From an uncultured Devosia sp. (GTDB lineage Bacteria > Pseudomonadota > Alphaproteobacteria > Rhizobiales > Devosiaceae): 64,000 bases of DNA. This document shows positions 44,767 to 48,779 of this stretch, piece by piece. The position numbers were made by a program, and so were the translations under genes. Each line of letters starts with the position of its first letter. The stretch's first letter is position 1. The notes under the pieces are model-generated. The model did no database searches. It was not told the origin of the DNA and saw nothing but the letters and a program-made list of their open reading frames with translations. The stretch spans positions 1 to 64,000 of the forward strand of contig NZ_CAJXJS010000007.1 of assembly GCF_913055165.1 (NCBI RefSeq). Reading direction: 5' to 3'.

Positions 44767-44989
44767 CCGATCTCACCAATGCGGGCCGCGCCGGAGTATC
44801 CACATTTTCGATTTTCACCCCGATTGCCCCCGCTTCACCAGTGACCAGCTCAATCTCGGCACCAGGATGAAGCTTGGCAGCAACGATAGTGCCGTCGCCC
44901 GCTGTGACGGTGACCTGCAGGGCGCCGCTGGTTGTGTTGGCAAAGCTCCAGCGGTCCCCCGGTTTGCTGGGATAATCGGTCACACTCAC
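44759..44989 (-). CDS. small tail protein
   Basis: This 76-residue beta-rich protein (GALQVTVTAGDGTIVAAKL) lies between the tape measure and gpM-like genes. The ATG overlaps the tape-measure stop by one base. No family assigned. Confidence 0.6.
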   Translation of the reverse strand: MSVTDYPSKPGDRWSFANTTSGALQVTVTAGDGTIVAAKLHPGAEIELVTGEAGAIGVKIENVDTPARPALVRSDA

Positions 44990-47040
44990 TATCGACCCTT
45001 TCTGTTGATGCCATAAAGCTCGCGCATCAACCCGTCCATTTCGCCTCGGGCATAACCGTTCTTGACCTCCGCCAGAACGACCCGGGCAATTGGAATGCCA
45101 TCTCTGCCCTGCCGCATTTCCGCGCTTTCCACCCGCTTGTCGCCTGCCGGGTTAACAATCTCGACATGCAGGGGGCCAGCCTGCTGCCGCGCCTGCTGTG
45201 CATTGCGCACCAGGGCCTGCACAAGGCTGTCGGCATTGTCCATCTGGCGTGGCGTGAACACGCCTTCGTCCCGGCGGGCGACGATCAACGCCTCTTCCCG
45301 GCTGAGGCCGCCATTATGCATGCGCGGCAGGGTCGCCAGATGCCGCGATTGTGGCGCACTGCCCCGGCCGACCAGCCAACCGGAATGCGCCTGGCCAAAG
45401 AGTGACGGGCCGGTGAGGCCGGGGACAAACCCTGCCGTTGCCGGTCGGAACGCGCTCGACAGCCAGCCCGTCAGGGCATTGACCCCCATATCGATGCCAC
45501 CTGTCAGCAACTTGTTGATAAGCCGGTCAGTGACATCGGCCAGCACCTCGCCAGCTTCCTTGCCTTCACGAAAACCCGAAACGATGCTGCCCAGCACGTC
45601 CTTGGCCGTTCCGCCAAGGCTTTCCATCGCACTCTCGACCAGCTCGATCGAATCCCGCTCCTTGTCCAGCTGCTCGACCAGGCCACGGATTGTCTGCCCT
45701 TCTCTGGACGCCGCCTCCACACCGGCGCGGCGCAGCTGGTTCATTACCTCCCGCTCGACGGCGGTCATGTTCAGCGCGGCAAGCTCATCCTGCAAAGCCT
45801 GCACCACGCCGCGAATTTTCTCCCTTTGCCGATCGGCATCGGTGGTGGTGCTACTGCGACTGGATCCGGCGCCAGACGTTGGTGACTTGAATGTGGAGCT
45901 GAAGTCCTCCCAGCTTGGCAGGCTCCCAGGCAGGTCAATCTTTGGCACAACCGGCGGAGTGGAGCCACGACCCTGGAGCTCCGTTATACGGGACAACAGG
46001 CGATCCGCTTCCGTCGTTAGGTCCTCAAACTCCTGCCGAAGCTCCGCCAGCTCTCCTTGTCTCAGCATCTTGAGCGGATTGAATTCGCCCATTTTTGCGA
46101 TGTCGTCTTCCAGCGTGGCGATGGAGTCCCTAACACCCGCCCGTCGATTGTAGAGATGGGCCAATTGGTTCTGCAGAGGATTGATCTGAGTGCGGTTTTC
46201 GATCGAGTTGAACTGGTCCAGAAAAACGCCCAGAAGGTGCGCCGCCTCAACAATCACCCGCTTCAGCCCCTGGTCCACCGTGGTGGCAATCTCGGAAAAC
46301 TTCCGGTCCAGATCATCGGCCTTCTTGACCAGGTCTTCGTCCAGCACCGCACCCAGCTCGGTCGCTGCTGTGATCGTATCGCGGATACCCTGCTCACCCT
46401 GCTCGATCAGCTGCACAAACAGCTCGCCGGCCGAACCACCGAATATCTCGTCCATGACGCGGATTTGCGCCGCACGGTCGAGCGATTGCAGCTTGCCGAT
46501 GATTTCGCTGAACAGCGCCGAAGGATCCTTGAGCTTTTCGCGCAGCCGCTCGGCATTGTAGCCCAGCCTCTCAAACGCCTCGGCAGCTGAGCCGCCCCCT
46601 GTGGTGATGAATTCATCAGCCCGCAGGTTCAGTTCCTTTATGCCGTCCACCAGCTGGTCAACGCCGATGCGGTTCTGCTCGGCAACATACTTCAGCTCCT
46701 GGAAAGCCCTGATGTCGAGGCCTGCCCGCTTGGCGGCATCACCGACTTCCGCCACGCCGCGCGCCACGTCACGCACCTGCTGCACGGTGGCATTGGCCAC
46801 AAGGCCAGTGACCAGTCCGGCCACACCGCCGCGCAGCCGCTGCAATCCACCAAAGACCTCCCGGCTCACCTGCGCGCTCGCATTGATCTGCTTGAGCACG
46901 GCATTGGCTTCCCGGCCCTGGGCTTCGATCTGGGCCAGGGCGCGGTGCCCTTCCAGACCCAGTTCATGAAAGCGCCGGAGCGTATCCGCACCGCCCTTTA
47001 GCGAGACGCGGACACCCACTTCCTTATTCCGGTTCACCAT
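44989..47040 (-). CDS. tail tape measure protein
   Basis: A 683-residue protein with coiled-coil and helical regions throughout (HRALAQIEAQGREANAVLKQ near the start; RQGELAELRQEFEDLTTEADRL), a Gly/Ser linker (SPTSGAGSSRSSTTTDADRQ), and an Ala/Gly-rich hydrophobic part near 500-540. By the rule of about 1.5 angstrom per residue it predicts a tail near 100 nm. AAAAGG lies six bases before ATG 47040, which is preferred over ATG 47046. Confidence 0.9.
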   Translation of the reverse strand: MVNRNKEVGVRVSLKGGADTLRRFHELGLEGHRALAQIEAQGREANAVLKQINASAQVSREVFGGLQRLRGGVAGLVTGLVANATVQQVRDVARGVAEVGDAAKRAGLDIRAFQELKYVAEQNRIGVDQLVDGIKELNLRADEFITTGGGSAAEAFERLGYNAERLREKLKDPSALFSEIIGKLQSLDRAAQIRVMDEIFGGSAGELFVQLIEQGEQGIRDTITAATELGAVLDEDLVKKADDLDRKFSEIATTVDQGLKRVIVEAAHLLGVFLDQFNSIENRTQINPLQNQLAHLYNRRAGVRDSIATLEDDIAKMGEFNPLKMLRQGELAELRQEFEDLTTEADRLLSRITELQGRGSTPPVVPKIDLPGSLPSWEDFSSTFKSPTSGAGSSRSSTTTDADRQREKIRGVVQALQDELAALNMTAVEREVMNQLRRAGVEAASREGQTIRGLVEQLDKERDSIELVESAMESLGGTAKDVLGSIVSGFREGKEAGEVLADVTDRLINKLLTGGIDMGVNALTGWLSSAFRPATAGFVPGLTGPSLFGQAHSGWLVGRGSAPQSRHLATLPRMHNGGLSREEALIVARRDEGVFTPRQMDNADSLVQALVRNAQQARQQAGPLHVEIVNPAGDKRVESAEMRQGRDGIPIARVVLAEVKNGYARGEMDGLMRELYGINRKGR

Positions 47041-47380
47041 CGTCATCCTTTTCGCTCAGTGCCTTGACGAGACCACGCTCGCAGCCGGCCAACAGTGTTT
47101 CCGCCTCGTCGCCATCAACCCCGGCCAGCATCAGCCGGCGCAGGGCGCGATCCATGTCGACACCAAGCACTGCGCCCCCGGGGGAAAGCCGCAAGCGGTG
47201 CGCGTCATCCATGAACAACCCCCAGGCCATGCGCCCCTCATCCGACTTCGGGGCATGGGCATGATAGGGGCAGTCTCCCGGCTGCGTGGTCGCGCATGCA
47301 GCGCCCGTTACCTTGCAGCCTTCACAATATTTGCGCCCCTTGCCGCGCCCCCAATGCCAGGCGGCAAGGAGCGCAATCAG
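47024..47380 (-). CDS. T-like extension of tail chaperone, made by -1 frameshift
   Basis: This 118-codon stretch is open in the -1 frame from the slippery site and has no start of its own with a good ribosome-binding site; a GTG/ATG at 47230 lacks one. It carries a Cys/His cluster (KYCEGCKVTGAAC, then GDCPYHAHAPK) and a helical tail (MDRALRRLMLAGVDGDEAETL). By analogy with lambda gpGT, ribosomes that slip at 47386-47380 join this to the 138-residue G-like protein, giving 256 residues. It overlaps the tape-measure start by 17 bases. Confidence 0.82.
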   Translation of the reverse strand: MIALLAAWHWGRGKGRKYCEGCKVTGAACATTQPGDCPYHAHAPKSDEGRMAWGLFMDDAHRLRLSPGGAVLGVDMDRALRRLMLAGVDGDEAETLLAGCERGLVKALSEKDDDGEPE

Positions 47381-47386
47381 TTTCCC
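47331..47386 (-). promoter_or_regulatory. programmed -1 ribosomal frameshift site
   Basis: On the minus strand the heptamer G GGA AAC (47386-47380) sits in the zero frame directly before the TGA stop (47379-47377). Three bases later a 16-bp stem forms (47376-47361 with 47346-47331), perfect apart from one G-U pair, closing a 14-base loop. Slippery heptamer plus stimulatory stem at a G/T-type gene junction is the known arrangement for tail-chaperone frameshifting. Confidence 0.88.
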
Positions 47387-47793
47387 TCGCGGGCGATCCG
47401 GTTGTGGCGCTGGAGCTGTTTCTGACTAAAGGCGTTACTGACCACAGGGTCGGCGATCACGGCCGCCAGCTTGGCCGAATCGAAAGGAATGTCGGCGCCA
47501 CGCTCCTGCACGCCCTTCCAGTCGCTGACCGTCAGTTCGGCTATGCCGATTAGATAGAAATAGGTCCAGACGCCATTGCGCTCGACCTCATCGCTAAGAT
47601 CAGGCAGGCCAGTCACATGTCCACCGGCGCGGCTCACGGCTTCGCCACCCTCGATCGCCTGCACCACCATATGGTCCGCCCGAGACCGGGCCGCATAGCT
47701 GATGGGCGTGGTCACCGGCAGAGCAAACACGGAAACCCCGTCGGCCAGATCCAGCCAACGGGGCGTTTTGCGGTCAGTTTCACCAATATCCAT
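47377..47793 (-). CDS. tail assembly chaperone, G-like
   Basis: This 138-residue protein lies between the tail-tube gene and the tape measure, where siphoviruses encode their tail chaperone. It begins DIGETDRKTPRWLDLADGVSV and has ERNGVWTYFYLIGIAELTVSD; the C-terminus (KQLQRHNRIAREGN) contains the slippery site in its last codons. In lambda, gpG and the frameshifted gpGT coat the tape measure and recruit tube protein. Confidence 0.85.
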   Translation of the reverse strand: MDIGETDRKTPRWLDLADGVSVFALPVTTPISYAARSRADHMVVQAIEGGEAVSRAGGHVTGLPDLSDEVERNGVWTYFYLIGIAELTVSDWKGVQERGADIPFDSAKLAAVIADPVVSNAFSQKQLQRHNRIAREGN

Positions 47794-48779
47794 CAGTAGC
47801 TGTCCACGTCATTGGTCAGCACAACAGACATGAGGTAGCCCAGGTCAGGGTCACGGGCCGCGCGCCACTGCCAGCTCTGGCTGATCCCGCCTGGGCCATT
47901 GATCGGCAGCTTCGGCTTGAAGAAAAACACCCGCGGCATGGTGATGACCAGGCTGAAATCAGGGTGTGAGGCCAGGCCATAGGTGATCACCACAGCGGCA
48001 GGGGTTTTGGCGTTGGCCAAAGTCTCGAGCGCGGTAGACGTGCTGTAGCGCACATCCAGCGTGCCGGTGCACATGCGCTCGCCTTCATCCACGCCATCGA
48101 TCAACCCGTCAGCCCGGATATTCTCCGCGCTCTCCAGGCTGTTGGTGTACTGTGCCCGGCCCGCACTGACATTGCCGATGGCACTGCCCCCCACCGTGAT
48201 CGCGGCCTTGGCATTATCGAAGGGCAGATAGGCCAGCTGGATTGGCGTTGCGTCACGCGCACCACCGACATCGCTGGTTTCGCCCTGCCCGATCAGCGGC
48301 ACCTCAGCCAGGGCGCGGCCGGTACGGGCCAGATCGAAATTAAGCCCGCCCGCCTTCGTCCCATAAACGGTGTTCCATTTGGGCGTCGAGAGCAACGGAT
48401 GCCCGGTCTGGCTGGCAAAGCTCAGCAATTCCTGCCCCGACACAAATTCATGCTCGAAAACGCCGCTGTCAACGCCCGTCTCTGCGCTGTCGGGCGCTCC
48501 GAACACAGTCTTCAGCACCACGCCCAGATTGCGCGCGCACATCGGCACCGTCATCGCGTCATTGACGATCACCGGCCCCTGCACCGGATCGCCAGCATCG
48601 GGCGAACCCAGGTTCCAGGTAGGGTCATCTTCCGGTGGCTGCTCCGGCGACAATCCATATTGGCGCATGGGGACGCGGTAATAGACGCCACCGCCCGATC
48701 CGTCTGGCGGGGTGCCATAGGTGGCTTCAAAGCCAATGAGGTTGACGACATCCGCGCCAACCGCGCGTTGCTTGGCCAT
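47793..48779 (-). CDS. phage tail tube protein
   Basis: A 328-residue protein with the layout of siphovirus major tail proteins: an N-terminal GADVVNLIGFEATYGTPPDG, a middle VPLIGQGETSDVGGARDATP, and a C-terminal RVFFFKPKLPINGPGGISQS and GYLMSVVLTND. The region near 200-260 may be an added Ig-like part. The stop overlaps the chaperone start by one base, matching the need for tight stoichiometry. Confidence 0.85.
   Translation of the reverse strand: MAKQRAVGADVVNLIGFEATYGTPPDGSGGGVYYRVPMRQYGLSPEQPPEDDPTWNLGSPDAGDPVQGPVIVNDAMTVPMCARNLGVVLKTVFGAPDSAETGVDSGVFEHEFVSGQELLSFASQTGHPLLSTPKWNTVYGTKAGGLNFDLARTGRALAEVPLIGQGETSDVGGARDATPIQLAYLPFDNAKAAITVGGSAIGNVSAGRAQYTNSLESAENIRADGLIDGVDEGERMCTGTLDVRYSTSTALETLANAKTPAAVVITYGLASHPDFSLVITMPRVFFFKPKLPINGPGGISQSWQWRAARDPDLGYLMSVVLTNDVDSY

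Follow-up and report, generated by a model that had tools for sequence, protein, structure and literature searches.

Frameshifting in tail assembly chaperones is widely conserved (PMC5009743), and G_GGA_AAC and A_AAA_AAC are given as sites in the haloviruses HCTV-1 and HCTV-2. The tail genes of phage lambda are ordered tail tube, G, T and tape measure, and a -1 frameshift late in G gives both G and a G-T fusion (PMC5009743). The heptamer GGGAAAC is already in print in this role: in gp18/gp19 of the Burkholderia phage KL1 it lies directly before the TGA of a short tail protein and leads to a joined -1 product, with a stem-loop predicted by mfold (PMC3483164), and in the Caulobacter phage CcrColossus it is the site in the pre-tape measure chaperone, for which phiCbK has AAAAAAC (PMC3556154). 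The Rhodobacter phages RcKemmy and RcKai carry a two-piece joined CDS annotated as "tail assembly chaperone"; RcKemmy belongs to the RcC cluster, and its frameshift signal is not analyzed in the available part of PMC8601537.

We analyzed a stretch of 64,000 nucleotides (hereafter the window) from a contig of an uncultured Devosia sp., in which a prophage tail module is encoded on the minus strand in the order tail tube, G-like gene, T-like frame and tape measure (Table 1). An earlier note made on this DNA had claimed a programmed -1 frameshift in the tail chaperone, and its description of the site was borne out. The G-like ORF ends with GAG GGA AAC TGA, which places the heptamer G GGA AAC in the zero frame with the stop codon immediately next to it. 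The stem starts 3 nt past the heptamer and has 16 bp with a single G-U pair and a 14-nt loop, as the note had it. The -1 frame is open for 15 codons upstream of the junction as well as for the 118 codons after it, and the claim that it has no good start of its own also holds, for no ATG, GTG or TTG precedes the ATG of codon 50 (position 47230). The junction peptide REGN-LIALL was reproduced by translation, and the predicted G-T fusion has 256 aa. Because three IMG/VR contigs have the identical gene and junction, the junction is not a sequencing slip.

Table 1. Features of the tail module around the candidate frameshift site, in window positions.
Feature	Position	Strand	Match
Tail tube protein, 328 aa	47793..48779	-	Pfam PF18906 Phage_tube_2, E 2.5e-29
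G-like tail assembly chaperone ORF, zero frame, 138 aa, ending REGN then TGA	47377..47793	-	
Slippery heptamer G GGA AAC (GGGAAAC)	47380..47386	-	
Zero-frame stop TGA, doubling as 3-nt spacer	47377..47379	-	
Stem 5' arm, 16 nt	47361..47376	-	
Loop, 14 nt; the MFE fold puts two inner pairs in it	47347..47360	-	
Stem 3' arm, 16 nt	47331..47346	-	
T-like -1 frame extension, 118 codons, four-cysteine motif; stop 47026-47024	47027..47380	-	
Tape measure protein, 685 aa, overlapping the end of the T-like frame	44989..47046	-	phrog_10574, E 1.6e-141

The locus resembles lambda in gene order and in the predicted pair of products, G and G-T, but the lambda heptamer GGGAAAG has AAG at its end and is placed 15 nt upstream of the G stop, and its downstream fold is weaker (-13.7). 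In systems of the lambda type, an RNA structure downstream is common without being universal, and the two products, in a set ratio, are required to assemble tails. While lambda G matches PF06894, the window G matched no Pfam family up to E 1, Phage_TAC_2 (lambda gpG) included. KL1 shares the position of GGGAAAC directly before TGA; unlike in the window, however, another protein gene lies between gp18/gp19 and the tape measure gene, and the downstream fold was weak in our calculation (-7.8 for 60 nt). The Caulobacter phages, which we compared by description, likewise have an alphaproteobacterial host, and their two heptamers are the two commonest among the relatives of the window, although the available part of PMC3556154 describes no stem-loop. 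RcKemmy and RcKai have a homologous T (tblastn E 1e-7 and 4e-7), share GGGAAAC with the window and have their stem in the register common among the relatives, whereas their zero frame continues for 90 nt past the heptamer. Since direct BLAST of the window G against RcKemmy G gave only a 27-residue match (E 3e-4), the link between the two rests mainly on T. In a Nostoc phage relative, in contrast to the joined CDS of RcKemmy and RcKai, the annotation gives each of the two parts a gene of its own.

Within the window, the heptamer by itself is unremarkable, as GGGAAAC occurs 11 times against 7.5 expected and 16 of 100 shuffled sequences had as many; its frame, its place at the stop and the hairpin jointly exceed chance. 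The stem has an MFE of -33.3 kcal/mol; none of 200 dinucleotide shuffles reached so low a value (z -4.8), and a second run gave z -4.0. This is the strongest downstream fold among 16 in-frame X XXY YYZ sites of the 12 ORFs examined, the runner-up reaching -25.6. When the structural region was cut into 2157 segments of 60 nt at steps of 10, five folded as well, the frameshift site being one of them. A search of 36-58 kb for inverted repeats with arms of 14 nt or more and a gap of at most 40 nt returned three, and the two besides this stem are overlapping palindromes. An Rfam search of 46900-47900 found no family up to E 1.

The earlier note had proposed an alignment of related prophages as a check. 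The queries for diverged relatives were either the G protein or profiles built on G and T, the heptamer being part of none, and they found loci in 5 of 136 genomes of the family (the host's own included), 9 of 397 of the order, 15 of 385 of the class and 14 of 398 of the phylum; in the genome collection, G045 is of the same genus as the host. Further relatives came from viral contigs, phage records and named genomes (four loci in all, of Devosia or Pelagibacterium). In 58 of 61 distinct loci, the window included, a canonical heptamer stood in the correct frame, and it always read XXXAAAC or XXXAAAA. The first set contributed 36 of 39 loci (32 and L067 by script, with L030, L049 and L064 added later; a further check confirmed L049, L064 and L067) and the second 22 of 22, three genomes outside the class among them. 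All 58 sites are distinct over 121 nt. The heptamer was missing in a broken copy (L065) and in L023 and L028, which read G GGG GAA and G GGG GAG at its place and still have an open -1 domain; slippage on the G run is possible in these two. Separately, one genome outside the class (G899) carries five T-like copies (L105, L116, L121, L124 and L125), and the sites of L121 and L124 are identical.

The tests described below used the 56 sites first analyzed, which contain one duplicate (L124), or the 38 non-redundant ones among them that are less than 90% alike. The recoding, stem, start-codon and covariation tests and a 33-site alignment omit six loci, namely L023, L028, L065, L049 (whose T shifts frame further along), and L064 and L067, which have a distant T that matches from profile position 51 or 52 only and starts without YCxxC. 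The 38 sites have AAAAAAC (20), GGGAAAC (13), AAAAAAA (3) or GGGAAAA (2), and none has AAG. Past the heptamer, the zero frame stops immediately in the window only, after one codon in 15 sites and after 66-186 nt in 22, and it likewise stops immediately in L064 and L067, outside the 38. We also observed that in those 22 sites (e.g. L008, L052, L053, L068, L103 and L108) the unshifted chaperone gains an extra tail, which is encoded across the hairpin. The -1 domains of nine relatives in one alignment have 39-56% identity to that of the window.

Because the stem arms overlap conserved codons, the hairpin could be a by-product of encoding LxALAxWHFGxG in GC-rich DNA, with the heptamer alone directing slippage. 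We examined this by redrawing codons, with codon usage pooled over sites, while the -1 peptide of each site was fixed and the zero-frame peptide was left free to vary where that frame was still open. When the -1 peptide of the window was recoded synonymously 5000 times, just one recoding folded as well as the natural sequence. Over the 38 sites, the mean z was -2.08 (Fisher p 8e-25), with 35 sites below the recoding mean and 26 at p<0.05, the other 12 missing that level. At control offsets 25, 50 and 75 codons downstream, z was also slightly negative, as the by-product explanation would have it, but its means were only -0.15, -0.49 and -0.69. The mean best-stem score was 11.1 against 6.5 in shuffled sequence (maximum 7.3 in 200 runs), 4 of the 38 sites scoring below 8.

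Base changes within the stem bear on the same question. The covariation score for columns 13-27 with 34-48 (ungapped, 38 sites) was 0.262 against 0.183 +/- 0.015 in shuffles that keep kinship among the sites as a possible contributor to the scores, and it was reached in none of 500 shuffles; slid registers gave 0.088-0.176. Stem pairs swap from C-G to G-C, most clearly at columns 14-47 (CG 10, GC 10) and 15-46 (CG 15, GC 13). Two of five covariation measures were not unusual against the shuffles over these sites, namely the 11 pairs changed on both sides (95 of 500) and the 30 further pair types (49 of 500). The best stem falls in register 61, the commonest, in 19 of the 38 sites. The window stem is in register 67 (i+j) and therefore does not add to the covariation count; compared with L006, its 3' arm is displaced downstream by two codons, and yet the full stem is kept. 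An alignment of 19 sequences was dropped as stem evidence because its members had been picked by stem register, which made it circular. We conclude that the hairpin is conserved beyond coding need, as judged from sequence comparison, and regard the by-product explanation as unlikely.

The earlier note had also called the 3-nt spacer unusually short. Its length is as stated, but the anomaly did not survive comparison: the stem starts 5-7 nt past the heptamer in 26 of the 38 sites, and the three outer pairs of the window stem would probably be open once a ribosome occupies the heptamer, the rest of the stem still giving -26.6 kcal/mol at a 6-nt spacer. The spacer is thus no obstacle to programmed frameshifting.

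A further explanation is that the T-like domain is made separately, by its own initiation or by termination-reinitiation, without any frameshift. The G stop overlaps the T frame, as in coupled genes; the broken copy L065 has an ATG in the T frame right after the G stop; 16 of the 56 sites have an ATG, GTG or TTG before -1 codon 15; and the Nostoc phage record leaves the two genes unjoined. However, the remaining 40 sites have no start codon near the junction, where the window offers CTG and ATT as the only candidates, and the codon-50 ATG of the window lies past the four conserved cysteines. Separate initiation would, moreover, leave the conservation of heptamer and hairpin unexplained, and we consider it very improbable. 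Least credible is that the frames are joined by transcriptional slippage on an A run, for although AAAAAAC occurs in 35 of 56 distinct 61-nt sites and one relative (L007, Pelagibacterium montanilacus) has nine consecutive A near the junction (GGAAAAAAAAAGC), where polymerase rather than ribosomal slippage is possible, the window site has three G and three A only, a run generally too short for RNA polymerase slippage, and the conserved downstream hairpin suits ribosomal slippage better.

Programmed -1 ribosomal frameshifting in a prophage tail assembly chaperone is thus the best reading of the locus, with a probability of about 0.93 on the sequence evidence, and among the relatives the heptamer, its frame and position, the hairpin and the -1 domain are found again, in support of the note's main claim. 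Most ribosomes would terminate at TGA and release the 138-aa G-like chaperone. The hairpin would hold a minority of ribosomes at the point where GGA occupies the P site and AAC the A site; both tRNAs could then slip back by one base and pair anew (GGA to GGG, AAC to AAA), and the slipped ribosomes would read on in the -1 frame to give the 256-aa fusion. If roles are as in lambda, G would bind the tape measure protein and T would recruit subunits of the tail tube. What the comparison shows is the sequence, its frame, a conserved heptamer and -1 domain and a hairpin kept beyond coding need; slippage, its rate and this division of labor we infer.

The identity of the two proteins was examined by profile and structure comparison. 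Searched against PHROGs, the window G gave nothing at E 0.01 and a single weak match to phrog_8233 (tail assembly chaperone, E 0.08), while PHROG 313 "Tail assembly chaperone" matched 6 of 10 aligned proteins (best E 4.4e-6), the window's own not among them. In BFVD, the G model built with AlphaFold (pLDDT 87, pTM 0.80) matched chaperones from several other phages, including the pre-tape measure chaperone of CcrColossus (E 8.8e-4), one of two matches to reach 0.001. Foldseek against PDB found no solved match to this model at E<=0.001; the top solved match by VIA-align was the HK97 tail assembly chaperone 2OB9, which was weak (Z 4.9; 94 of 107 residues aligned, rmsd 5.2). Profiles of T and of G against PDB gave no match up to E 1. 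An NCBIfam identity for G, based on one weak match in 1 of 10 members, was not used. Gene order, PHROG 313 in the relatives, the fold matches and the annotated Rhodobacter phage relatives together point to the window G being a tail assembly chaperone. The T-like domain opens with YCxxC..C..C in 55 of the 56 sites, and at the remaining site (L061) it has four cysteines too, in a different spacing; the motif may form a metal-binding knot. The AlphaFold model of T (pLDDT 88, pTM 0.80) had no solved relative by Foldseek at E<=0.001. DUF1799 and DUF7697, each a Pfam match in 1 of 10 members, were not used for T.

Across the 58 distinct heptamer sites, AAC or AAA stands in the A site and AAG never does, whereas lambda has AAG. 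A_AAA_AAC is reported to slip much less than A_AAA_AAG in E. coli (PMC5009743), which we counted against the frameshift reading. We considered whether a host tRNA-Lys-CUU, which would hold AAG in frame, is the reason for AAC. The host has both tRNA-Lys-UUU and tRNA-Lys-CUU, among the 30 of 39 tRNA matches listed. ARAGORN found tRNA-Lys-CUU in 7 of 11 further genomes (G045, G125, G504, G607, G998, G144 and G553), while the loci examined in the other four (G899, G902, G1151 and G1184) held other tRNAs; in G304, G411 and G1147 it was found by pattern only. A pattern search that could overlook an odd tRNA found UUU alone in 7 of 12 genomes, those four and G1025, G1074 and G1164. The frameshift sites of these seven genomes use AAC too, with one AAAAAAA in G902 (L122), and the simple form of the tRNA explanation therefore found no support.

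The X XXA AAC heptamer and the stem-loop around UGGCAY may constitute, in our estimate with slightly better than even odds, a widespread and so far unclassified RNA element with compensatory changes in prophages of alphaproteobacteria and other Pseudomonadota. Its stem would lie mostly 5-7 nt downstream, and its AAC or AAA A-site codon, unlike that of lambda, would not simply be set by the lysine tRNA genes of the host. Among the matches listed from the open-licence literature, none describes the co-varying stem that these relatives share.

Lambda has long provided the precedent for this mechanism, and the site in the window adds one more probable instance. Such a recoding site escapes simple gene calling: the ORF list of the window (70 aa and up) has G but not the 118-codon T extension. 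The relatives are natural frameshift signals of one architecture, with swapped stem pairs, varied heptamers and varied zero-frame stops, and they could let the shares of heptamer, stem and A-site codon be measured in non-enteric hosts.
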